DNA of 48,659 bases from Patescibacteria group bacterium (lineage in GTDB: Bacteria > Patescibacteriota > Minisyncoccia > Phycocordibacterales > SBAW01). The stretch is taken from positions 1 through 48,659 of the forward strand of contig JAIEMM010000004.1 of NCBI GenBank assembly GCA_019752125.1. The letters run 5' to 3'. Each line of letters starts with the position of its first letter. The first letter of the stretch is position 1. The notes beneath the pieces were generated by a model that did not search any database, was not told the origin of the DNA, and saw only the letters and a program-made list of their open reading frames with translations. The translations under genes and the position numbers were made by a program. This document shows, in pieces, positions 662 through 33,742 of this stretch.

Positions 662-1345
662 TTAGTGATGCATACCGTCGCGAGTCTTCTCGATGAAGCG
701 AGCTGCTGCTTCCTGACCACCGAGGCCAAATGAGAGACCGAACGCAAGAGCAAGAGCAACAACAACACCAGTGAAAAGTGTCTGGAGGATTCCTTGTGCA
801 ATTTGGAGCTGCTCCATTGCTGCGAGGATTGCGAAGATCCAGATAGCCCACTTTGCAACTGTGCCTGCGACACCAGCGCCGTTGATGCCAGCTGCGCGTG
901 CTGAACCGCGAACAATGCTTTGCGCAACGTCAGCGATAACTGCACCTGCCAAGATGATAAGAACTGCGATGATCACGTTTGGCAAGAATGCAATAACGAT
1001 CGACTGCAAGAAGTACGTCACCGCAACGAGTCCGAGCACCTGAAGTGCTGCGAGCAAGAAGACGAGGATAACGAACCAGCGTACAAGCTCACCGAGGAAT
1101 TTACCTGAGTTGAGGTTGTAACCTGCGCGAGTGATGACATCGTTGAACCCTGCGCTGCGAAGTGCATGGTCAACACGAAGCGCTTTGACCGCTTCAGACA
1201 CAAGCCAGCATGCCCAGCCTGCAAGATACCATCCGATGATGAAAATAATAATGGCGAACAGGAGGTTGGGAAGGAAATTCACCACGTTCCAAAGCAGGTT
1301 ATAGAAAGACTGCTGAAGAACATAACCCCATTGCTGAACTATCAT
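662..1345 (-). CDS. Mechanosensitive-channel-like / CmpX-type conserved TM helix membrane protein
   Basis: 227 aa; multiple TM segments; TM-helix repeat style (ALRSAGFNDVITRAGYNLNSGKFLGELVRWFVILVFLLAAL, GLSFGLGGQEAAARFIEK). Confidence 0.65.
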   Translation of the reverse strand: MIVQQWGYVLQQSFYNLLWNVVNFLPNLLFAIIIFIIGWYLAGWACWLVSEAVKALRVDHALRSAGFNDVITRAGYNLNSGKFLGELVRWFVILVFLLAALQVLGLVAVTYFLQSIVIAFLPNVIIAVLIILAGAVIADVAQSIVRGSARAAGINGAGVAGTVAKWAIWIFAILAAMEQLQIAQGILQTLFTGVVVALALAFGLSFGLGGQEAAARFIEKTRDGMHH

Positions 1346-1394
1346 GATATATAAACGAAAAATAATGATTAATATGCTACACCTCTATTGTAGC

Positions 1395-1410
1395 TCCGCC
1401 AGCTGGCGGA
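1395..1410. repeat. 16-bp palindrome TCCGCCAGCTGGCGGA, copy 1
   Basis: Near-identical to copies at 2407 and 3547. Confidence 0.85.
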
Positions 1411-1462
1411 CATAGCCCCACCTGGGGATAGCTCCGGAGGAGCCCCTTTGGGGTAAAAACCC

Positions 1463-2041
1463 TTACTTCAGTCCTATATCCAACCGATCAAGCACGATAG
1501 AGTGCGGGTAGTCCAGAACGTCTCGCACTAGTTTGTCGTTTAGGTTAAGGCGGTAGAAAAAATCATCGGTAGAAAGAAGCGTGAAGCGAATCTCTTTTCC
1601 TATTTCAGCCTCCAATTTACGAATCTCGTCTCGCAACTTTTTATCTTTCATGCGGTCGCCCACAAGAAGCAAGTCGAGTACACCTTCCCACTCACCCAAA
1701 AAGATACCTGAAAGAACAACCAACCTAAGCGTGCCCGTCCTGCGAACACGGTCGACAATATCTTTACCACGCGTTGGAGCGTTTAGTAAAAGATTTTGGA
1801 GCGCTGCAACATATTCAAAATCAGCGTTGAGTGTGTAGCGCACGTCCTTACTGCGCGGTGCGCGCATAACAACACCGGCGTTCGTAAATAAAAGTATTTC
1901 TTTGCGTGTTTCAACTTCTGCAACACGTGCGCGCTTGGCCGCATCGGCGGACGTAAACGACTGACGAGGATTGAATAGGAAGAGACGCAGTAATTTTACC
2001 CGAGCAGGGCTTCCAAAGAGTTTCTGTAATCCATCAGCCAT
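1463..2041 (-). CDS. Winged-helix transcriptional regulator-like protein
   Basis: 192 aa; N-terminal wHTH style (LFGSPARVKLLRLFLFNPRQSFTSADAAKRARV...). Confidence 0.6.
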   Translation of the reverse strand: MADGLQKLFGSPARVKLLRLFLFNPRQSFTSADAAKRARVAEVETRKEILLFTNAGVVMRAPRSKDVRYTLNADFEYVAALQNLLLNAPTRGKDIVDRVRRTGTLRLVVLSGIFLGEWEGVLDLLLVGDRMKDKKLRDEIRKLEAEIGKEIRFTLLSTDDFFYRLNLNDKLVRDVLDYPHSIVLDRLDIGLK

Positions 2042-2094
2042 ACAGTCAATTCAGTAGTGCCTGACCATTCTACATGAGGGAATAAAATATGCCT

Positions 2095-2255
2095 ACTCGA
2101 GAAGAGTAGGCGGGGACAGGGAGGGGGAGAACGGGAAGGAAAGAGCGGGGAGTGAGCGGTGGGAAACGGGGAGAAGAGGATTGAAAGAAAGAGCGAAGAA
2201 GGGAGAGATAAGAGAACGAGGATAAAAAAGGTGTAGCGAGGAGAACGGTACGAAA
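2095..2255. other. Polypurine(+)/polypyrimidine(-) tract with G-quadruplex motif
   Basis: Almost uninterrupted G/A on the plus strand, including GGGGACAGGGAGGGGGAGAACGGG. Confidence 0.85.
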
Positions 2256-2394
2256 TGGAGCAAACATTTCGCAACAAAGACCGAACTCGACCTTTTTCAT
2301 GCTTTGCAATGACCTGTGCTCTGCCCTATCCTCTTTTAAAAACTCGCCTCTCAGAGAAAAGGTTTCAAAAGTTATCCACAGGTCCCCATAAAAC

Positions 2395-2434
2395 AAAAAC
2401 CCCGCATCCGCCAACTGGCGGAGCGGGGGTTTTG
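2395..2434 (-). terminator. rplL terminator with embedded palindrome
   Basis: AACCCCCGCTCCGCCAGTTGGCGGATGCGGGGTTTTTG on the minus strand. Confidence 0.8.
2407..2422. repeat. 16-bp palindrome TCCGCCAACTGGCGGA, copy 2
   Basis: Identical to the copy at 3547. Confidence 0.85.
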
Positions 2435-2471
2435 TACCTTGAGGCGTCGCCTCCGGAGGTTTTGGATTGGA

Positions 2472-2828
2472 TTATTTCAACTCCACTTTGCCGCCGGCTG
2501 CTTCTACAGCTGCCTTGAGCTTGTCTGCATCCTCCTTCTTCATACCCTCTTTGAGCATTGCTGGAGCTGCATCTACGAGATCCTTTGCTTCCTTCAAGCC
2601 AAGGCCAAGCGCATCTTTGATTGCCTTGATAACCTGGACTTTCTGAGCACCTGCATCTGAGAGCTGGACGTTGAAAGAAGACTTCTCTTCCGCCGCTTCA
2701 GCTGCTGGACCTGCTACTGCAACAGCTGCTGCAGAAACACCCCACTTCTCCTCGATTGCCTTTACGAGCGTGTGGAGCTCAAGTACCGACATCTTTTCTA
2801 CTGCTTCGATGATTTGATCCTGTGTCAT
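2472..2828 (-). CDS. rplL: 50S ribosomal protein L7/L12
   Basis: 118 aa; [72 protein letters not shown]. Confidence 0.97.
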
Positions 2829-2841
2829 AAATTTTAATTAA

Positions 2842-3471
2842 TTAGCTTGTTTGTTCTGGTGTCTCCCCTTCGGTTGGAGCCTCAGCTACAACCTCGGCTG
2901 GAGCTTCAACTTCCTCAGTTGGGGTTGCTTCTGGTTGTACCTCGCTAGACGCTTCGGCTTGTTCAACCGGAGCTGGAGCTGCTGACCCAGATACTTTTGC
3001 CACCTCGTTCAACACAACAGCAAAGCGCTGGCGTGGTGAGTTGATGACCTGTGCGAACATTGCACGCAAGGTATCCATACCCGGAATGGCTGCGATGGAT
3101 TTAATCTCATCTGCAGTCATATACTTGCCGCCGAACACACCACCTGCAAAGGCAAGGTGTTCAGAGAATTTCTTAACAAAGACTGCCAACTCACGTGCTG
3201 GCGCGAGCTCGTCGCGACCAGACACGAGCGCTATCTCCCCTTCAAGTTCAGGGGCTGTACCCTCAAACTTTGCAGCATCAAGCGCACGACGCATAAGAGT
3301 TTTCTTCGCAACCGTATAGCTGACATCTGCTGCACGAAGTGCGCGGCGGAGTTCAGTCTGTTCCGATACTGGAAGACCTTTGAATTTTGCGAATACCAAT
3401 GTTGAGGAATCCTTGATGATTGCACTCACCTTGTCGGTAATCTCTACTTTCTTCTGTTTTGTAATTGCCAT
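2842..3471 (-). CDS. rplJ: 50S ribosomal protein L10 with acidic/proline-rich C-terminal tail
   Basis: MAITKQKKVEITDKVSAIIKDSSTLVFAKFKGL...; adjacent to rplL; start set to the second ATG. Confidence 0.93.
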   Translation of the reverse strand: MAITKQKKVEITDKVSAIIKDSSTLVFAKFKGLPVSEQTELRRALRAADVSYTVAKKTLMRRALDAAKFEGTAPELEGEIALVSGRDELAPARELAVFVKKFSEHLAFAGGVFGGKYMTADEIKSIAAIPGMDTLRAMFAQVINSPRQRFAVVLNEVAKVSGSAAPAPVEQAEASSEVQPEATPTEEVEAPAEVVAEAPTEGETPEQTS

Positions 3472-3486
3472 GTATTTTTTGGGCAA

Positions 3487-3600
3487 AAGAAATGCCCTTT
3501 TAACGTAAGGGCTTTGAGTTCGACCTCGGGAGGACTTGTTCCACTATCCGCCAACTGGCGGAGTGGATGCCTCCTTTCTTCGGCCCCTATGAAGATGAGA
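3487..3600 (-). promoter_or_regulatory. Candidate ribosomal L10 leader / attenuator
   Basis: Minus-strand 5'UTR contains nested hairpins, CCTCCCGAGGT resembling the L10-leader CCUGCCGAGG motif, and a competing AAGCCCTTACGTTAAAAGGGC / GGGCATTTCTTTTGCCC pair just before the start. Confidence 0.5.
3547..3562. repeat. 16-bp palindrome TCCGCCAACTGGCGGA, copy 3
   Basis: Identical to the copy at 2407. Confidence 0.85.
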
Positions 3601-3738
3601 TTACTGTGGTTGTGCGACGTTGTCAACGGGTTTAGGAGCCCCTTGCCCCAACACCACAAGCACTGAAAACGCGGCCACAATAATGACCAAAAATCCAAAC
3701 AAAAACTTGAAGAAAGTTCCTGTGAAATATTTTTGCAT
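3601..3738 (-). CDS. Small (45 aa) single-TM membrane protein
   Basis: Translated by hand: MQKYFTGTFFKFLFGFLVIIVAAFSVLVVLGQGAPKPVDNVAQPQ; directly downstream of the TPR gene; shorter than the ORF-track cutoff. Confidence 0.6.
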   Translation of the reverse strand: MQKYFTGTFFKFLFGFLVIIVAAFSVLVVLGQGAPKPVDNVAQPQ

Positions 3739-3741
3739 GCT

Positions 3742-4422
3742 CTATTGGAGGTGGTCGAGCGCGTATTGAAGGTCTGTGTTTCCTGGGTTTGCCTTGAGTC
3801 CTGCTTGCAGAGTCACACGAGCCGCAGCCTTGTCTTTGAGGTTAATACTCTGCATCGTAGCTAAATTAATGTAGGCATGGATATTGTCGGGAGAAAGTTT
3901 GATGAGCGCATTCCAATATGTTGTGGCCTTTGCATAGTCGTGCAGGTAGTTTCCATAGAGATCAGCCAAGTTGTTGTACGCGATAGGATCAGTTGGCCAA
4001 CGCGTAGACACATAGAGCCATACCTCTTCTGCGCCAGCAAAGTCATCGGCCCCCTTTCGTAAGTTTCCAAGCTGCAACCAATATGCAATACCGTTAGGGT
4101 TGAATTTCAACTGCTCAATAGCGGTCGTATATAGTTTCTTATTATTGTCCTGGACGCTTTGTGGCAAAGTGGAGAGCGGTTTGTATGGACGATTCAAATC
4201 AGGCTGTTTGAGATTTGATGTGTCGCCAACGCCAATCTGTACTCCTCCAGGAGTAGCGCTCCCCTGTCCTGTTGTGGTGGCGTTTGTTGAGGTTGAAGTT
4301 GTGTTCGTATTATTTGTTGGCGCAACCGCTTTATGGTTTGCGCTTAAATACCATGCGATAGCTATAAAAATAACGATAATTGCTGCCGCGATTCCGTACC
4401 ATTTTCGTGTATTTTCATCCAT
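3742..4422 (-). CDS. Membrane-anchored TPR protein
   Basis: 226 aa; N-terminal TM; TPR-like C-terminal half (AIAYNNLADLYGNYLHDYAKATTYWNALIKLSPDNIHAYINLATM). Confidence 0.75.
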   Translation of the reverse strand: MDENTRKWYGIAAAIIVIFIAIAWYLSANHKAVAPTNNTNTTSTSTNATTTGQGSATPGGVQIGVGDTSNLKQPDLNRPYKPLSTLPQSVQDNNKKLYTTAIEQLKFNPNGIAYWLQLGNLRKGADDFAGAEEVWLYVSTRWPTDPIAYNNLADLYGNYLHDYAKATTYWNALIKLSPDNIHAYINLATMQSINLKDKAAARVTLQAGLKANPGNTDLQYALDHLQ

Positions 4423-4434
4423 ACCTCCATTCTA

Positions 4435-6372
4435 CTACTTCGCATCCAGCTCATCAAACCAGAGGTTGGCATGAGGCGGCACGTCAGCACGCCAACCATT
4501 GGTGGACCACAGCGCTATGCCGTTGAACGTCGTGCCTGCGGCAAAATCGGTGTCGACCCATACGCAGTCGGAAAAATGTACGTAGTCTTGCATAAAACAA
4601 CTTTGTACAAACAAATCTCCTTGTTTCCAAGCAAAATAATAATGATGCCAGGTATCGTCGAGCGGTATCATGTTCAGGAAATTAATCCCCTTCGTGCTAC
4701 CGTTGTCTAAGCATGAGTCATACCCAGTGGCACAGATAGTGATTGCAGGAAATGGATTGTTAAAGCCAGCACGAGCTTTCACATATAGTGTGTATGCGCC
4801 GGAAGCTAGCCCGGGGTCTTTTTGTATAAACATACGGGGAACCAAAGTGTCGTATGCATTTCCTCCCATACCAACAGCACATCCTTTTCTAAAACACTCG
4901 CCATCTTCCCCATCATCAAAATCAAAGTTCTTTGCATTCTGTCCAAAGGTCTGCCAACCAAGACGGTTGAACGCATTGAACGTGTCGTTTATGGGGCTGT
5001 GTTCTGGTGTAAAAGGTGGCGGTGTTTGCGATGACGTTGTAGCTACTGCAGAAGATGGTGTTGATGTAGCCGCCGAAGCTATCTCTGTTGGCGCAGACGG
5101 TGTAGTAGAGGCGGTTGATTCAACTAAAGATGAAGATGTTACGGTGTCTACTGAAATTTCAGCCTGGGGTGGTGGCAACCCAGTACCTCCGTTTGATGTC
5201 GAGACTATATTTGTAGTAGTAGTTGCCTCACCTTCCCCATACTCCGACGCAGTATCAGTATCCTCAGAAGAAATGAGCGCCAGCGCTACCGAAGCACCTT
5301 GGCCAGAATTTAATTCCTCGTATGTCTCTTGATCGAGGCTCGAACCGTAAAGCTTTTTTATAAAACCAAAATTCTTTTCCTGGTTCTGTGGAGACAGAGG
5401 GTTGTTTGGTGCCTCCGCAGCCTTATTGGAAAAAGCACCTATTGCTGCACCGAGTACCCGTTGCGCCTCCCATGCAAACGTAAGCGTGTTTATTACAGCG
5501 GAAGCAACACCCCTATACGTAGCTATAAATGCCTCCGCGGCAGTGTCCGCAACAGGATCGGCAACAGCAAAAAGTACTTTTTGTACGTGATCAGACACCG
5601 ACTCAGCTGGCGGCATCAGACAAGGGCCTGCTTGCGCACCTTCCCCTGGCCGGTTCTTAAGGGAGCTTAGTTCTTTGTATATATCTGAAACCATTCGAGC
5701 CTTGGCGTCCTGCACATAGGACAAAAATCCATGAGTCTGGAGCAGATCCGGAAGAGCGAGACTGCCAGATAAATCCACGTTGTTAGGTAGCGGCAGTGGG
5801 GCCTTCATTTTTTCTGCAACAGCTCGTGCAGAAAAAATAACAGCATCCTCGTATGAATTAATATACGTACCGCCCCCTGCAACATAGTTTGCCGGCGTCG
5901 CGACTGCATACAAACCAATGGAAGTAGGCGGCGTGTCATGAACGGTAAGGTGCTCATACAGAGAGTTTGCGTAGAGAGCTCCTTGAGAGTGACCTACGAG
6001 GAGAAGTTTTTGGGTTGCGTCTTTTTGTGAGAGCTCTCGAAGAAGATTATAGAAGTCATAGTTAGAAATGGGATTAAATAACATTTGGGAAACCGTTTCA
6101 ACCATATCCCCCACCCCAGCCAGATGTATCGGGTTGTATGCAAGAACAACCGTAATTGGTTCTTTCTTGTACGACTCGGGCAGTAGCAGTTCCAGCGCGG
6201 TAGTATTTGATCGTGCTTTCTCCAACGTATCGAAGCTGCCGTTTATAAATGCGACGGTATACCCATATGCCGAACAGCTACTAGATGTACCAGCAAACAC
6301 TTTGTGTACTGGAAACGAGACTAGCGGCAAGGCAAGAACACTGACGACTATGTAAAGGTGTAATTTTTTCAT
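4435..6372 (-). CDS. Secreted alpha/beta-hydrolase-like protein with long linker and C-terminal beta-rich (lectin-like?) domain
   Basis: 645 aa; signal peptide; GHSQG nucleophile elbow (LLLVGHSQGALYANSLYEHL); Ser/Thr/Pro-rich linker. Confidence 0.65.
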   Translation of the reverse strand: MKKLHLYIVVSVLALPLVSFPVHKVFAGTSSSCSAYGYTVAFINGSFDTLEKARSNTTALELLLPESYKKEPITVVLAYNPIHLAGVGDMVETVSQMLFNPISNYDFYNLLRELSQKDATQKLLLVGHSQGALYANSLYEHLTVHDTPPTSIGLYAVATPANYVAGGGTYINSYEDAVIFSARAVAEKMKAPLPLPNNVDLSGSLALPDLLQTHGFLSYVQDAKARMVSDIYKELSSLKNRPGEGAQAGPCLMPPAESVSDHVQKVLFAVADPVADTAAEAFIATYRGVASAVINTLTFAWEAQRVLGAAIGAFSNKAAEAPNNPLSPQNQEKNFGFIKKLYGSSLDQETYEELNSGQGASVALALISSEDTDTASEYGEGEATTTTNIVSTSNGGTGLPPPQAEISVDTVTSSSLVESTASTTPSAPTEIASAATSTPSSAVATTSSQTPPPFTPEHSPINDTFNAFNRLGWQTFGQNAKNFDFDDGEDGECFRKGCAVGMGGNAYDTLVPRMFIQKDPGLASGAYTLYVKARAGFNNPFPAITICATGYDSCLDNGSTKGINFLNMIPLDDTWHHYYFAWKQGDLFVQSCFMQDYVHFSDCVWVDTDFAAGTTFNGIALWSTNGWRADVPPHANLWFDELDAK

Positions 6373-26168: not shown

Positions 26169-28103
26169 TTATTGAGCGACCGCGCCCATGTTTGCATTGT
26201 ACCCAGCTTCACTATTCAACTGCGTTGTCGGAGCGACCGCAGTAGCGCGTACCTGCACCTGCGCGAAACGGTCCTGTCCGGAGAAGTTTGCAGCGTTTGT
26301 AAGCGCCGGCGCTTGTCCTTTCTGCGACGCACTCGGAAGCAATGAGACTTGGAACGCGCCTACTCGTGAAGCCGCCGTAAAACCTGCTCCGGCCTTCACA
26401 TCCCCCATTGTCCATGTAACCGTGCGGCTGCCAGCGTCATAGGTTATACCGCTGCCAGACTGAGCACCCACAAACGTAACATATGATGGCAGCGTTGCAG
26501 AAACGACGCCGTTTGCAATGGTATTCGAAGTGTTCGTCACTGTCCATGTAATGCCGTAGGTGGTGCTTTGCCCAGGCACCGGCGGCATTGGGCCTGTATT
26601 AGAAAATGGTCCACTAAAGTGTGATGCTGCCGCGCTAAGCACAACAACCGACGACACATACACCTGTGCTGAGTCAGCTGACGTAACATTTTGAGGAACG
26701 TTAGTCTGTCCTTGGCGTACGCCCTGTACCGTTACGTTAAGGCTGATAGCAGGGTTGGAATACAACGTCCCTCCTGCCCCAGACGACAGTGTTCCGAAAT
26801 GGAATGGGAGTGTGCCCGTACCACCAGGTGGCACAGCAGCAAGCTGCTCATTTTGATCCTTACTCCAGACAATCGTCGAATCAGAAGACTGGTAGAAACC
26901 GGTTGGCGCACCCACAGCACTTGAGTTAAGAGTGGGGCCCGAGAGTGAGAGTGTCAGCTGCACATCCGTTACAGGGTCAGGCAAATTGTTTGTCCATGTA
27001 ATCGTGCCTTGGATATCAGCACCCGACGGCACAGAAATCGTCTTGCCCGTCTGACCATTAACAGAAAGTTGTGCAGCAATAAATGGACGACGCACGGTCA
27101 ATGTCTGAGGGACTGACAAGAATGGTACGCGTAGTGTTGTGTTTGTTTTGTCAGAATCTGAACCTGCGAGGAAATAAAATACGCGCGTGTCACCATCCTG
27201 GCCATTGAGCGTGCCCGTGACATGCAACACTTTTGAGTCGCCCGGTTTCATTTCACCCAAGCGCCACAGCGTGCCACCAACCTGTGCCTGCGGCGAGGTA
27301 CCTGTTACCGTAAATCCAAATGGATAGCGCGCCTGGATCACCACATCTTGCACTGGCGCGAGCGCGTTGCTCTGCACCGTTACATCAAAGGCAAATTGCT
27401 GGTCGGAAATTGCTTCCGTCGGCGACGAAACCGAGATTGAAACTGGCGATGAGCCAACCGTAAAATTTACATCCGCATCTCTTTCAAAGACCGCGTTCGA
27501 ACCCTCGATGCTGTATTCAAGCTGCACCGATACTTTCTGCGCTTGACCTTCCTGACCATAGAAAATCGCCTGAGACGTTCGTTGCACTGTCTGCCCTGCG
27601 CTTATAGAGCCGATAGATTGTCTCTCGTGCGTCAGTGGTTGGTTCGCGTTCGCAGCATTACGCGTTCCATCAGGGTAGTTGATGATCAAGTCCGCCAATT
27701 TCAAGTTGGCATTATTGCGGTTAACAATAAGCACTTGGACTGTCGTTGCCTTACCTCCGTCTATAACCGACGGCATGATAATCTGTACATCAATATTTTG
27801 TGGAGAAATACCGTTGTTGCCGTAGAAAAACATGTACCCAGCAGCACCTGCCGCAAGAACAAAAAAAGCAAATGAGACTACGAGAAATTTTGTTGCAATA
27901 GACCAACCTTTTTTAGTAGATGCCATAGAGAGAAGTGTGGTGATTTGAGGTAAAGGAGAACGTGGGCCTTCATTCCATGAGACAGGGACATTCGTTGAGT
28001 GTGCCTCAAGTGGGGTCCTCTCATCTGGATTTATAGATACGTCATCTTTGCGCGAATAGAGCGCAGCCTTAAGCCATGCTATCGAGCCCTTCTTCTCTGC
28101 CAT
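26169..28103 (-). CDS. Membrane-anchored protein with extracellular Ig/CARDB-like repeats
   Basis: 650-aa ORF; one TM near residue 85; TVTNTSNTIANGVVSATLPSYVTFVGAQSGSGITYDAGSRTVTWTMGDVKAG (DUF11-like). Confidence 0.75.
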   Translation of the reverse strand: MAEKKGSIAWLKAALYSRKDDVSINPDERTPLEAHSTNVPVSWNEGPRSPLPQITTLLSMASTKKGWSIATKFLVVSFAFFVLAAGAAGYMFFYGNNGISPQNIDVQIIMPSVIDGGKATTVQVLIVNRNNANLKLADLIINYPDGTRNAANANQPLTHERQSIGSISAGQTVQRTSQAIFYGQEGQAQKVSVQLEYSIEGSNAVFERDADVNFTVGSSPVSISVSSPTEAISDQQFAFDVTVQSNALAPVQDVVIQARYPFGFTVTGTSPQAQVGGTLWRLGEMKPGDSKVLHVTGTLNGQDGDTRVFYFLAGSDSDKTNTTLRVPFLSVPQTLTVRRPFIAAQLSVNGQTGKTISVPSGADIQGTITWTNNLPDPVTDVQLTLSLSGPTLNSSAVGAPTGFYQSSDSTIVWSKDQNEQLAAVPPGGTGTLPFHFGTLSSGAGGTLYSNPAISLNVTVQGVRQGQTNVPQNVTSADSAQVYVSSVVVLSAAASHFSGPFSNTGPMPPVPGQSTTYGITWTVTNTSNTIANGVVSATLPSYVTFVGAQSGSGITYDAGSRTVTWTMGDVKAGAGFTAASRVGAFQVSLLPSASQKGQAPALTNAANFSGQDRFAQVQVRATAVAPTTQLNSEAGYNANMGAVAQ

Positions 28104-28121
28104 TCCAAAAGTATACAACAA

Positions 28122-28703
28122 TTACAGCCCGGTTTCGGCGAGGGAGATATTTATACTTCTGATAAGCAGTGGGCGGTTCTTTTTAGCCCGCTCGATAAGA
28201 GATGGTGAAAAGGTATGAGAATCAAGGAATATAGCAAGCTCCTGTTTTTCCTCAACATATCCCAGCCGTGCAATGATGCGCAACACTAGCACCGCTTCTA
28301 TATATGGGAGTGTTTCTTCGTCAGTTTCTTGTGTAATATACGCAAAACCGCGCGACACAATATCGAACAGCTCAGGGACGGGTTCTTCTCCTTGGATAAG
28401 ACGGATCAGAAGCCTGCTCACCTTCCCCGCTGTTTTACGCTGAGCAACAGAGGTGTGCAAAAACGGACGAGAGAGTTCCTGTGTACCCGTCAGCTTCCAT
28501 TCATACTTGCCGCGCACAAGCGAAAATCTTCCTTGCGTCAGAGTCTCAAGTCCATAGCGAAGTTTGGAACGCTCAAGACGTGCGGAACGTGCAGAGGCTC
28601 GCACAACACCAAGATCTTCGGTCAGGATAGATACAAGCGTATTCGCCTCGCCTACTGTTCGCTTACTGAGCACTATTCCCCGCGTTGCGATAACATCATG
28701 CAT
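28122..28703 (-). CDS. recO: DNA repair protein RecO
   Basis: ATRGIVLSKRTVGEANTLVSILTEDLGVVRASARSARLERSKLRYGLETLTQGRFSLVRGKYEWKLTG. Confidence 0.85.
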   Translation of the reverse strand: MHDVIATRGIVLSKRTVGEANTLVSILTEDLGVVRASARSARLERSKLRYGLETLTQGRFSLVRGKYEWKLTGTQELSRPFLHTSVAQRKTAGKVSRLLIRLIQGEEPVPELFDIVSRGFAYITQETDEETLPYIEAVLVLRIIARLGYVEEKQELAIFLDSHTFSPSLIERAKKNRPLLIRSINISLAETGL

Positions 28704-31700
28704 TCGCTTGTTCTTTCAATTGCAGATCTTGAAGGCCCGTTTGTGCAACAAGAGTCGAACGATATTTTTCTGCAACAGCTTTTTCTTCTGCGGTGACTTC
28801 AAGCACATACGAAGGGCGGTCGCTAATAGAAAGCTTTTGCTCTTTGCGCCACTCCTGGATGCGGCGAGCGAGGTCGCGCACCAACCCCTCTTCCTTAAGT
28901 TCTTGCGTAAGGTTTGTGTCGAGCACTGGTTCTGTAAGCGATGCGTCTTCGGTAACTTGTTTTACATTGATCTCCTCAGCAAGGATAGTGTGGAGTGCAG
29001 AGTTGTGTGGCAAAGAAGCAGCTGAGAACTTTGCGAGCGGTTGGCGCACTTTTATTCCCGCACGGTCGCGGAGTTCCAAACCCTTACTTGCGAGTTCACG
29101 GATGGTTTGCATGTCTGTAAGAAGTTGCTCATCAACTGAACCGCCTTCCGGCCACGCAGCCAAGTGGATACTCTCCTTTTCGCCCAGCCCTTGCGAGACG
29201 CTTTCTGCAATAAACGGTGTTATAGGAGCAAGAAGTTTAGCCACCGTCAAAAGTACATGCTTCTGTGTAGCCAAACACATCTGTGCATCTTCCCCATCAC
29301 CGCGAGCACGGTCACGAGAACGGCGAACGTACCAGGTCGAGTAGTTGTCGATAAATGCACGGATTGGCCTTGTTGCGCTTGGGAGATCATATTTCTCAAA
29401 CGCGTCCGTTGTTTCTGTAACTGTTTTGTTCAAGAGCGAAATAATCCAGCGATCCAGTGGGTGCCCGCTCTCCGTATAATCAGCGTCACCTACTTTGTCT
29501 TTGTAGAGTTCAAAGAATTTGTAAGAATTCCACAATGTACCGATAACACGATTGTGCACTTCGCGCACATCTTCATCACGGAAGTTAAAGTCCTCTGCCT
29601 GCATAACCACCGAGCTCATAAGGTAAAAGCGGTATGCATCAGAGCCCCATGTATCCATCAACTCATACGGGTCGGTGTAGTTGCCCTTAGACTTACTCAT
29701 CTTTGCGCCGTCTGCGGCAAGAATATTTCCTGTTACTGTTACCGCCTTAAACGAGCCCTTGCCAAACAAAAGCACACCCATCGCGTGCATGTAATAGAAC
29801 CATGTTCTAGTCTGTCCAATATATTCCGCAATAAAGTCACCAGGATATCCTTTTGGAGCCAAGCTAAAGAAACGCTCTGGGTTAACCTTTGATTTGTCGC
29901 GCGGATACTGCATCGACGCAAACGGCATTGCACCCGACTCCACCCAGCAGTCGAGCACCTCTGGGATACGTTCGTAGCGAGTTCCTTTTTCATCAACCAG
30001 CACCACATCGTCGATGTACGGACGGTGCAAATCAAGTTCGTATTTTTTATTGTGCGGGAATGGAGTGAATTTCATTTCCTGCCACGTACCTGGTTCCAAA
30101 AATGGAATCTCGTTATCCTCCGCGACAATTTCCTCAACTGTTTTTATCTGCGCCACGGCATCCATCAACCATGCCGGGCACTCATGCGTAACGATAAGGA
30201 CTGTCTTGTTGGTGTAACGACGCTCCAGATCAAACAGGAATTCACCCACGCGAGTTTTTACGTCTTGGTATGTCTCCCCACCTTCAGGCGCGTGTGCAAA
30301 TCTATTTGCATAACCAGGAAACGCCTTCTTCCACTCTTCAATTGTCTTGCCTTCGTAATTTCCAACCTGAAGTTCGATCAGCCGCTCATCTGTCATAAGA
30401 GCCGATTCAGGCAACCCAAGTTCTTTACGCACGATGTGTGCAGTTTCCTGTGTGCGGAGAATAGGAGACGCGATGATGAGATCTATATGTTTTTTTCTCA
30501 AACTCGCTACAGCAGCTCGGACTGACTCTTTCCCTGTTTCGGTGAGATGGTTGTTTACATCGCCGGTGCTATCAAAGATTCCTGCGACGTTGCTCTGTGC
30601 CTGGCCGTGGCGCATGACAAAATATTTATTGCCAGACTTCTTGGTTTTAGCGAGCAACTCATCGAGCGAACCGACCACCATCAGTTTTTTTCCTTCTAGC
30701 TGCTGGCCTGTGGCAGACTGTTTTTCCTTCCAAATAGGAAGTGGGGATGCCCAGAAACGATTGCGGGAGATGGTCCAGTCAGGCGCGCTCTCAACAATGT
30801 TGCGGAAGCGTCCGTGTTTTAAATGCTGAGGGAACCAGTTAATCTTCTCGTTCTCCGAAAGCAACTTATTCTTCACCTTCTGGATGTTGAGGAACCAGGA
30901 TACAACCGCGTTGTATATAAGAGGTGTACCGCAACGCCAACAGTGTGGGTATGAGTGCATGTGCGCCTCTTTACCGTGAAGGAGTCCCCGAGTTTCAAGG
31001 TCTGCAATAATTTCTTTCTCTGCCTGCTTGATGTATTTTCCGCGTATAAATTCTGGGACGATGTTGTTGTAATGACCGTTTGCTTCGAGCATCTGCACCA
31101 TTGGCAACCTCTCCTTCATGCCAAGCGCAAAATCGTCTTCACCGTACATCACGGCGGTATGTACGACACCCGTACCCTCACCTGCCACGACAAAATCTGC
31201 CGCCCACACTTTGTACGAACGCGAGCTTTTAAGCGCCGGCACATCAAAGAGCGGTTCATATTCAATACCCACTAGGTCGCTGCCCTTTATATCCCCACCA
31301 TCTTCTTGTTCTATATAGTGCACGTTTCCCTCCTGCACTACCGCGTAGCGCATCTCTGGACCAACAGCGAGGCCGACGTTCCCAGGAAGAGTCCATGGTG
31401 TGGTCGTCCATGCAAGAAGGTAGGTATGTTCGGGCAATTTAAATTTCTGTGGGTTTTTTATTTTAAAACGCACCGTGACTGCCGTGCTGGTAACGTCCTT
31501 ATAGGTATTGTCGGCAGCAATCTCTGCTTTTGCCATAGGTGTCTCGCAGTGCATGCAGTACATCAGCACCTTCTTTCCCTCATACATAAGGTTCTTGCCG
31601 TGCATGCGCTTGAGCGCCCACCAGACGGACTCAATATACGAGTTGTCCATCGTCTTGTAGGAGTTATCAAAATCAACCCATCGGCCTACGCGCTCGATAT

Positions 31701-32088
31701 ATCGTTTCCAGTCGTGCACATACTGGAGTACCAATGAACGTGCAGTTTCATTAAATGTTTCAATACCGATGGCTAGAATTTCTTTTTTAGTTTTGAGGCC
31801 GAGTGTTTTTTCTACCAAATTTTCAATTGGCAGACCGTGTGTGTCCCAACCCCACACGCGAGGCACGCGATACCCACGCATAGTTTTGTAGCGCGGGACA
31901 ACGTCTTTGATTATCGAGGAGAGGAGGGAGCCTGAGTGTGGCAAACCTGTTGCAAATGGCGGACCATCATAAAATACATAGTCGCCCTTTGAAGCAGGCT
32001 TTTCAACCGACTTTTCAAACGTCTTGTCCTCCCTCCAAAACTCAAGGATCTTCTCTTCCCGCAGTACTGTCTCGCTCTTTTCTGCCAT
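28696..32088 (-). CDS. ileS: Isoleucyl-tRNA synthetase with inserted histidine-phosphatase domain
   Basis: MAEKSETVLREEKILEFWREDKTFEKS...WGWDTHGLPIENLVEK, DCWVESGAMPFA, KMSKSKGNYTDPYELMDTWGSDAYRFYLM; internal YFVMRHGQAQSN. Confidence 0.95.
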   Translation of the reverse strand: MAEKSETVLREEKILEFWREDKTFEKSVEKPASKGDYVFYDGPPFATGLPHSGSLLSSIIKDVVPRYKTMRGYRVPRVWGWDTHGLPIENLVEKTLGLKTKKEILAIGIETFNETARSLVLQYVHDWKRYIERVGRWVDFDNSYKTMDNSYIESVWWALKRMHGKNLMYEGKKVLMYCMHCETPMAKAEIAADNTYKDVTSTAVTVRFKIKNPQKFKLPEHTYLLAWTTTPWTLPGNVGLAVGPEMRYAVVQEGNVHYIEQEDGGDIKGSDLVGIEYEPLFDVPALKSSRSYKVWAADFVVAGEGTGVVHTAVMYGEDDFALGMKERLPMVQMLEANGHYNNIVPEFIRGKYIKQAEKEIIADLETRGLLHGKEAHMHSYPHCWRCGTPLIYNAVVSWFLNIQKVKNKLLSENEKINWFPQHLKHGRFRNIVESAPDWTISRNRFWASPLPIWKEKQSATGQQLEGKKLMVVGSLDELLAKTKKSGNKYFVMRHGQAQSNVAGIFDSTGDVNNHLTETGKESVRAAVASLRKKHIDLIIASPILRTQETAHIVRKELGLPESALMTDERLIELQVGNYEGKTIEEWKKAFPGYANRFAHAPEGGETYQDVKTRVGEFLFDLERRYTNKTVLIVTHECPAWLMDAVAQIKTVEEIVAEDNEIPFLEPGTWQEMKFTPFPHNKKYELDLHRPYIDDVVLVDEKGTRYERIPEVLDCWVESGAMPFASMQYPRDKSKVNPERFFSLAPKGYPGDFIAEYIGQTRTWFYYMHAMGVLLFGKGSFKAVTVTGNILAADGAKMSKSKGNYTDPYELMDTWGSDAYRFYLMSSVVMQAEDFNFRDEDVREVHNRVIGTLWNSYKFFELYKDKVGDADYTESGHPLDRWIISLLNKTVTETTDAFEKYDLPSATRPIRAFIDNYSTWYVRRSRDRARGDGEDAQMCLATQKHVLLTVAKLLAPITPFIAESVSQGLGEKESIHLAAWPEGGSVDEQLLTDMQTIRELASKGLELRDRAGIKVRQPLAKFSAASLPHNSALHTILAEEINVKQVTEDASLTEPVLDTNLTQELKEEGLVRDLARRIQEWRKEQKLSISDRPSYVLEVTAEEKAVAEKYRSTLVAQTGLQDLQLKEQANA
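30049..30636 (-). other. Histidine phosphatase (PGM/RHG superfamily) domain inside ileS
   Basis: KYFVMRHGQAQSN...HLTETGKESVRAAVASL...IASPILRTQETAHIVRKELG...RLIELQVGNYEGKTIEEW...APEGGETYQDVKTRVGEFL...VLIVTHECPAWLM. Confidence 0.93.
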
Positions 32089-32122
32089 ATCAAAAAATAT
32101 ACCACTTTGGGCCTTATTTTGC

Positions 32123-33742
32123 TTACATTTCCTGAGGCGCCGGGATACCAAGCACTTCAAGCCCTTTCGCAAGGGTGCGCTCTATAGCTTGAACAAAGAA
32201 AAGTGCGGCGTCAGAAACTTCTCCATCAACAATCAAACGCTCGCTTGCATACCAACTGTTGAATGTAGACGCGAGCTCCGTGAGGTATGTAGCAACATGG
32301 TGAGGCTCAAGTTCAAGAGAGGCTCTTGCTACAGCCTCTGGGAAATGCAGGAGTACGCGAGGAATCTCTAGGTTTGAAAATTCCTTGTCAGTTGTTTTTG
32401 CGTCCTTTGCAGCGCGCAAGAGAGAGCGGGTGCGCACAAGTGCGTACTGAACATACGGACCGGAGTCACCTTCAAGTGAAAGAGATTTTTCTGGATCAAA
32501 AATAATATCTTTGCCTGTGTTCTGACGGAGAACCATAAACTTAATAGCTCCCACTGCCACATCTTCCCTATCTCGCGCTTCTTCAGTTAGGTCTTTGATG
32601 AGTGATTCTCCAGTGATGACATTTCCCAAACGTGAAGACATTTTGCCTGTCGTAAGTTTCAAAAAACCGTGGAAACGAGTGAGCATTTTATCTTCAAGGT
32701 CTGGGAAAATTCTCTCAGCAGCCGCACGGACAACTCGGAAAAAATCTCTTGTTTCATTAGCGGTGACTGTAAGAGACAGGTCAAACTGCCCCCTCTTCTT
32801 CTTTGCCACAACAAGACCAAGTTCTTTGGCCTCATAGGTAGGAATTCCCTTACTGTTTATAAATACGCGAGTATGGAGGCCAACATTCTCACCACGGAAA
32901 ATAGTTGCGCCGTCACTTGTTTCAAATACTTCAGAATGTTTATGCACTAAATCCAACCCCAACGGACCAGTCTCGCTTTCGAAAAAGTAGTAGTCAAATT
33001 TTGTTCCAAGGGTTTTATAAATATCCTCAAAGTGTTCAAGGGATTGTTTTCTTCCTTGATCGTAGAGTGCGTTTACTTCTGGGTCAGTTTTTTCGTAAAT
33101 GACTTTATTGAGTTGATCTATTTCTTCTTTGTTATTTTCGTATTCTGCAGAGCCGTACACATAGGCCTCGCCCCACGACATTTCTGGCTTCTGTCGTTTG
33201 GCCCATATAGCCTTTGCCACATGCACCCCAACGTCGCCTTGGTAGTTAGCACGCGCAACCTCAGCGCCTCCAGCTTCAAAAAGCCGCGCAATGCTTTCGC
33301 CTATGGCGTTACTCATTAAGTGGCCAATGTGAAATTCTTTAAATGGGTTAGGGTCGGTATATTCAACCAATACTTTTTGCCCAAGATATATATTGTTGTT
33401 CCCCCACCCTTCTTTTACCGCCTCTCTTACAACGTCCGCCAACGCTTCGTTTGAGAGATGGAAGTTTATAAATCCAGCGCCTGCGGATTCAATTTTTTGA
33501 ATTGAATCCGATCCGAGCGCAGTCGAGGATCTGAGGATGTCGACTAACTTATTTGCTATATCTCGTGGATTTGCCTTGAGTATTTTTGCAGCAACAAGCG
33601 CAGCGTTGGTGGAATAGTCGCCATGCGCCATATCAGAAGGGCGTTCAACAACAAAAGAGACATTGCCTGCCCCAAGCTCTTTAAGAGCTTCCTGTATTGC
33701 CTTTTCAATAGACGTGCGAACCATAAAGTTAGAGTTTAGCAT
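32123..33742 (-). CDS. argS: Arginyl-tRNA synthetase
   Basis: VEYTDPNPFKEFHIGHLMSNAIGESIARLFEAGGAEVARANYQGDVGVHVAKAIW; C-terminal DALR-type domain. Confidence 0.96.
   Translation of the reverse strand: MLNSNFMVRTSIEKAIQEALKELGAGNVSFVVERPSDMAHGDYSTNAALVAAKILKANPRDIANKLVDILRSSTALGSDSIQKIESAGAGFINFHLSNEALADVVREAVKEGWGNNNIYLGQKVLVEYTDPNPFKEFHIGHLMSNAIGESIARLFEAGGAEVARANYQGDVGVHVAKAIWAKRQKPEMSWGEAYVYGSAEYENNKEEIDQLNKVIYEKTDPEVNALYDQGRKQSLEHFEDIYKTLGTKFDYYFFESETGPLGLDLVHKHSEVFETSDGATIFRGENVGLHTRVFINSKGIPTYEAKELGLVVAKKKRGQFDLSLTVTANETRDFFRVVRAAAERIFPDLEDKMLTRFHGFLKLTTGKMSSRLGNVITGESLIKDLTEEARDREDVAVGAIKFMVLRQNTGKDIIFDPEKSLSLEGDSGPYVQYALVRTRSLLRAAKDAKTTDKEFSNLEIPRVLLHFPEAVARASLELEPHHVATYLTELASTFNSWYASERLIVDGEVSDAALFFVQAIERTLAKGLEVLGIPAPQEM

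Follow-up and report, generated by a model that had tools for sequence, protein, structure and literature searches.

A histidine phosphatase in the CP2 loop of isoleucyl-tRNA synthetases of Patescibacteria, with a history separate from that of its host

Synthetases with extra appended domains are already known. The proteins described by the NCBIfam model NF040702 (ileS_w_GNAT) likewise consist of an isoleucyl-tRNA synthetase (IleRS) and an additional enzyme-like domain, which in their case is an N-acetyltransferase and not a phosphatase. The protein analyzed here is encoded in a stretch of 48,659 nucleotides from a member of the Patescibacteria, referred to below as the window, and is matched by NF040702 through its IleRS part only (306 bits versus a cut-off of 1999); among the matches listed, no NCBIfam model is named for an IleRS with a phosphatase. 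Its nearest solved relatives are type-2 enzymes, those of Priestia megaterium (8c8u and 8c8v) and Thermus thermophilus (1ile). The window protein has the same catalytic, CP1 editing, anticodon-binding and C-terminal layout as 8c8v (TMq 0.72) and 1ile (TMq 0.66). Unlike all three structures, it carries a phosphatase of about 200 residues in the CP2 loop, lacks the zinc knuckles and has an HXGS signature instead of HXGH.

The ileS gene is located at positions 28696..32172 on the minus strand, on which all features given below also lie, and is read as an 1158-residue open reading frame (ORF) from a TTG codon. The first ATG, at 32088, lies 28 codons inside this frame and is the probable start, yielding a product of 1130 residues. 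The N-terminal half of IleRS, the phosphatase and the C-terminal half form a single unbroken frame, as originally predicted, and a Pfam search of the 1158-residue ORF finds the synthetase parts (tRNA-synt_1 from residue 41, Anticodon_1 at 907-1047) with His_Phos_1 (PF00300) between them at residues 518-668 (E=4.5e-34, 118 bits versus a gathering score of 21.7). The ileS model TIGR00392 is matched as two stretches with 773 bits against a cut-off of 621. The AlphaFold model of the whole protein has a pLDDT of 91.8, and its top Foldseek match is the type-2 enzyme (IleRS2) 8c8v. A CP1 editing domain is present, with the editing-site motif GTGVVHTAVMYGEDDF (31129..31176) aligned with the IleRS2 structures. 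The class I signatures consist of an intact KMSKS motif (29689..29703) and HSGS (31927..31938), an HXGS variant that replaces HIGH. Signatures of the HXGS type occur in about one-fifth of 62 aligned relatives, including some rows with no insert, and GXHH in about one-third. GXHH is a known functional variant that gives mupirocin hyper-resistance in IleRS2 (PMC10485003), and the main text of that paper makes no mention of HXGS.

By alignment, the insert is a branch-1 histidine phosphatase domain spanning ORF residues 513-714 (30031..30636), so that the predicted coordinates of 30049-30636 were essentially right. The original prediction placed it in a linker after CP1; the insertion is there, and the site can now be refined to the zinc hairpin of CP2, in whose loop it lies, flanked by the places that the two CxxC knuckles occupy in ordinary relatives. 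Both knuckles are gone from the window protein. They are both lost in 42 and both kept in 41 of 92 single-insert rows, lost in all 10 tandem-insert proteins and kept in 18 of 24 insert-free proteins.

Each catalytic residue of the superfamily is found in the insert: R521 and H522 of the RHG motif (30607..30612), of which H522 is the predicted nucleophile, the predicted phosphate-pocket arginine R573 of SPILRT (30454..30456), the predicted general acid E600 of RLIEL (30373..30375) and the second catalytic histidine H663 of VTHEC (30184..30186). All five are unvarying across 62 aligned full-length IleRS, which bears out the claim that the full set is present. Over 133 domains, the Arg-His pair and the pocket arginine are again invariant and the acid is found in 131, while the second histidine has three apparent exceptions in sequences that were trimmed to a fixed length; one of these, locus L068, shows this histidine in the full-length alignment. 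In the phylum sample, where second and third copies are included, the Arg-His pair, the pocket arginine and the second histidine are present in 53/53 domains and the acid glutamate in 51/53. For six close pairs, dN/dS by the Nei-Gojobori method is 0.03-0.21 for the insert versus 0.04-0.14 for the backbone, close to each other in most pairs, although these values are rough because dS is near saturation in several of them. Modeled in isolation, the insert has its own autonomous fold (AlphaFold pLDDT 96.8), and each of the 50 Foldseek matches listed for it is an RHG phosphatase or mutase (TM 0.6-0.78). Judged from its sequence, the insert is a complete histidine phosphatase under purifying selection. 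It looks catalytically active, going by the complete active site, in line with the earlier suggestion that it may be so.

The earlier suggestion that the architecture may recur in the lineage holds. Insert-bearing IleRS were read in at least 45 genomes of a 287-genome phylum sample, comprising 11 of the 12 genomes of the window's order (the twelfth was unread), 7 of 11 others of its class and 27 elsewhere. A scan of GTDB species genomes with an insert alignment of the closer rows as query produced 362 confirmed stretches, the best 80 of which were taken as further named loci. As far as record titles tell, these 80 are all from Patescibacteria, and the names among them include Adler-, Kaiser-, Zambryski-, Taylor-, Nomura-, Vogel-, Campbell-, Yonath- and Lloydbacteria. 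The closest relative of the window protein is encoded at L068 (Candidatus Adlerbacteria) and is 85% identical over the whole protein. Because the same layout and junctions are found in L068 and in many independent assemblies, a chimeric assembly or a frameshift, the possibility flagged at the outset, is ruled out. Some relatives, such as G205, have no PF00300 domain, so phosphatase activity is not universally required, which weighs against the reading favored below.

Further copies and a second host were also found. In ten IleRS of family f78 (1441-1551 residues), the CP2 loop holds a tandem pair of phosphatases. The IleRS of L041 (2167-6882, plus strand, 1572 residues) has three phosphatase domains, with the third located elsewhere, between KMSKS and the anticodon-binding domain. 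Among the matches listed, all fetched PF00300 frames longer than 600 residues are IleRS or valyl-tRNA synthetases (ValRS), and ValRS with a phosphatase in the equivalent CP2 loop occur in five genomes: G223 (L053/L168), G191 (L054/L172), G229 (L055), G046 (L056) and G044 (L171). The ValRS of G046 has two phosphatase copies, and the L171 insert has serine in place of the second histidine. The IleRS of G223 is also insert-bearing, and in the domain tree the IleRS and ValRS inserts of this genome do not group as sisters. The ValRS insertion in G223 looks fairly recent, since the related ValRS of G010 and G249, whose N-terminal halves share 68-71% identity with that of G223, have no insert. Other hydrolases are inserted in some of these proteins: the L055 ValRS (827-4657, plus strand, 1277 residues) contains a HAD hydrolase (229-342), a serine hydrolase (631-772) and a histidine phosphatase (819-1002), and the L042 IleRS (1641-6272, plus strand, 1544 residues) contains a serine hydrolase, a NUDIX domain and a phosphatase. 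The ValRS of L174 has an insert of about 100 residues in the CP2 loop with no match to the phosphatase HMM. Elsewhere in Patescibacteria, domains of the phosphoglycerate-mutase type, named by eye, are fused to a 2-hydroxyacid dehydrogenase (L057 and L058), a NUDIX-like domain (L062) and a DedA-like membrane protein (L059).

The insert and the synthetase around it have different histories. On a synthetase tree built from the backbone alone, presence or absence of the insert requires 11 changes, at least 10 of which are forced by well-supported branches. Pairwise identities of insert and backbone correlate at only 0.36, whereas backbone blocks of equal size correlate with the rest of the backbone at 0.78-0.91, except for the fast C-terminal end (0.43-0.57). 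The inserts are not simply too fast to compare, because in most close pairs they evolve at about the backbone rate, as in L101/L107, where the identities are 0.90 and 0.89. In other pairs, insert identity is about 0.41 while the backbone is at 0.75-0.77. Along the L090/L120 alignment, identity drops steeply on entering the insert, from about 0.85 to 0.3-0.5, and recovers on leaving it. It also falls towards the C-terminus and in the CP1 editing domain (residues ~200-320), the latter suggesting that the editing domain was exchanged too between these otherwise similar IleRS. With such drops outside the insert, these ileS genes are mosaics more generally.

The gene neighborhood provides a reference for these comparisons. 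The ileS gene lies between argS upstream (32123..33742) and recO downstream (28122..28703), which is followed by an ORF of 650 residues (26169..28121) that was used together with recO as a marker of organismal history. The argS-ileS-recO order is common: of the 80 named loci, 55 have a match to ArgRS and 57 a match to RecO close to ileS. ArgRS correlates poorly with both insert (0.20) and backbone (0.23), and argS may itself have been exchanged. Over all loci, recO correlates at 0.56 with the insert versus 0.44 with the backbone, and the 650-residue gene at 0.65 versus 0.50; in a small subset of Adlerbacteria, recO alone gives 0.41 with the insert versus 0.49 with the backbone.

The insert tree places the window, L068, L070, L071, L073, L074, L100, L109, L111 and L125 in one clade with top support, although its inner branches are poorly supported. 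The tree of recO and the 650-residue ORF, which contains eight of these ten members (L100 and L111 being absent), unites the window, L068, L070, L071, L073, L074, L109 and L125, again with top support. The synthetases of the ten fall into three distant clades, namely the window with L068, L070, L100 and L109; L071; and L073 with L074, L111 and L125. This split is seen separately in the N- and C-terminal halves, for which a single clade is rejected (AU p 1.6e-69 and 1.8e-46). A topology that constrains the insert to the backbone clade is rejected as well, with a modest signal (AU p=0.004). Family f61 shows the same pattern: a single insert clade is spread over two backbones (AU p 3.6e-7), and one of these backbones clusters with L046, which has no insert. 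Since the insert and recO-side trees agree while both synthetase halves conflict with them, the synthetase appears to have been exchanged in place around a kept phosphatase. On a plain reading, the phosphatase would have been retained while the surrounding synthetase was replaced in at least two lineages. One insertion inherited by plain vertical descent is ruled out by the ten or more label changes and the conflicting insert and backbone trees.

The window's genome has a single PF00300 match, which is the insert itself, and at least 13 other insert-bearing genomes have exactly one each; the insert is thus the only branch-1 histidine phosphatase found in such cells. The substrate is not readable from the sequence, because the insert reaches no equivalog model: the scores are 76 versus 350 bits for PspA and 86 versus 163 bits for CobC. 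The window's genome encodes a family I pyrophosphatase, so the insert is not needed as the cell's sole pyrophosphatase.

The reading favored here, held with about even confidence, is that the protein is bifunctional, a type-2 IleRS to which a phosphomonoesterase of the PhoE/PspA/CobC kind is tethered and works largely independently. The loop of the CP2 hairpin would carry a small, independently folding histidine phosphatase that hydrolyzes a small phosphomonoester via a phospho-histidine, as is expected from the family, with H522 as nucleophile, R521, R573 and H663 holding the phosphate and E600 serving as the acid. Turnover by the phosphatase would be largely independent of isoleucine activation, and the synthetase would act as an abundant, essential carrier. 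Selection would then keep the phosphatase activity and not a particular synthetase, in minimal genomes that often contain no domain of this family besides the insert. A glycolytic role for the insert, such as that of a phosphoglycerate mutase, is very improbable: it belongs to the same superfamily and weakly matches the dPGM models, but all of these matches are far below the cut-offs (the best scoring 89 versus 225 bits), and such a role is also made unlikely by the window's genome, in which neither enolase nor a metalloenzyme of the iPGM/apgM type was detected. Neutral insertion kept by chance, like an artefact of assembly or frameshift, has a practically negligible probability given the shared junctions in many independent assemblies, the range of insert dN/dS and the invariant active site. 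A purely structural or regulatory part, in which the fold stabilizes the synthetase or regulates it, perhaps through a bound phosphorylated ligand, with no need for turnover, is unlikely. The loss of the flanking zinc knuckles in many insert-bearing proteins suggests that the domain might serve as a scaffold in their place, and the serine of the L171 ValRS insert is consistent with this, but the knuckles persist in 41 of the 92 single-insert proteins and a scaffold would not need catalytic residues that are unvarying in IleRS inserts across deep divergence and duplicates.

The idea of a pure carrier has its own difficulty: among the long-frame PF00300 matches read, IleRS and ValRS are the sole synthetase hosts, with the insertion almost always in one loop, and a pure carrier would lead one to expect more varied hosts. 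Both hosts are tRNA-editing synthetases. The restriction to these two among the hosts read and the placement of the insert in the CP2 loop of either enzyme, with the ValRS inserts falling on branches of the insert tree separate from those of IleRS, point to the main rival reading, quality control coupled to the synthetase, as does the presence of the NUDIX, HAD and serine hydrolases in the like proteins of L042 and L055. The phosphatase would in that case act in cis, near the path of the tRNA end between the synthesis and editing sites, on something that the synthetase produces or binds, for instance the 3'-end phosphate of a damaged tRNA, AMP or another adenylate by-product. The title of one report (Zhou 2008, cited in PMC11580382) describes the CP2 of LeuRS as required for both activation and post-transfer editing. 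Such coupling is possible rather than probable, because the insert resembles small-molecule phosphatases in sequence and the backbone was exchanged regardless of synthetase type. The originally predicted action on AMP or on PPi-derived or alarmone-like by-products, or a coupling of charging to phosphate metabolism, is conjectural. A more specific proposal, that a novel phosphate-removal step acting in cis on tRNA ends or adenylate by-products was recruited separately into the CP2 loops of IleRS and ValRS in Patescibacteria and kept through synthetase exchange, is doubtful. A role strictly specific to isoleucylation is made less likely by the ValRS hosts, the tandem copies and the retention of the insert through backbone exchange.

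Because the phosphatase was kept while the synthetase was swapped, it probably has a useful, undescribed activity, and the pattern points to an unrecognized function that is directly testable. An embedded enzyme that is kept while its essential host is swapped represents an unusual form of gene evolution in a group with very small genomes, and the mosaic nature of ileS gene trees in Patescibacteria is a warning for their use. No description of a complete phosphatase inside IleRS or ValRS was found in the open-access literature searched, an absence that is weak evidence, and a survey of domain insertions does not mention phosphatases (PMC13114784). The insert shares its fold and catalytic residues with PhoE/YhfR (1h2e), PspA (iPSP, 4ij5), CobC (6e4b), Rv2419c (4qih and 6s2q) and an HFP of the riboflavin pathway (9mmh), with an E value of 7e-16 against PspA by sequence and TM scores of about 0.7-0.77 for the isolated insert against the small branch-1 phosphatases. 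These enzymes are stand-alone, whereas the phosphatase of the window is embedded. In RNase H-acid phosphatase (NF005567) and PFKFB, a branch-1 histidine phosphatase is likewise joined to another enzyme, but these are known as end-to-end fusions and not as insertions in a synthetase loop. New here are the tandem and triple copies, the ValRS hosts at the same loop and the separate histories of insert and synthetase.
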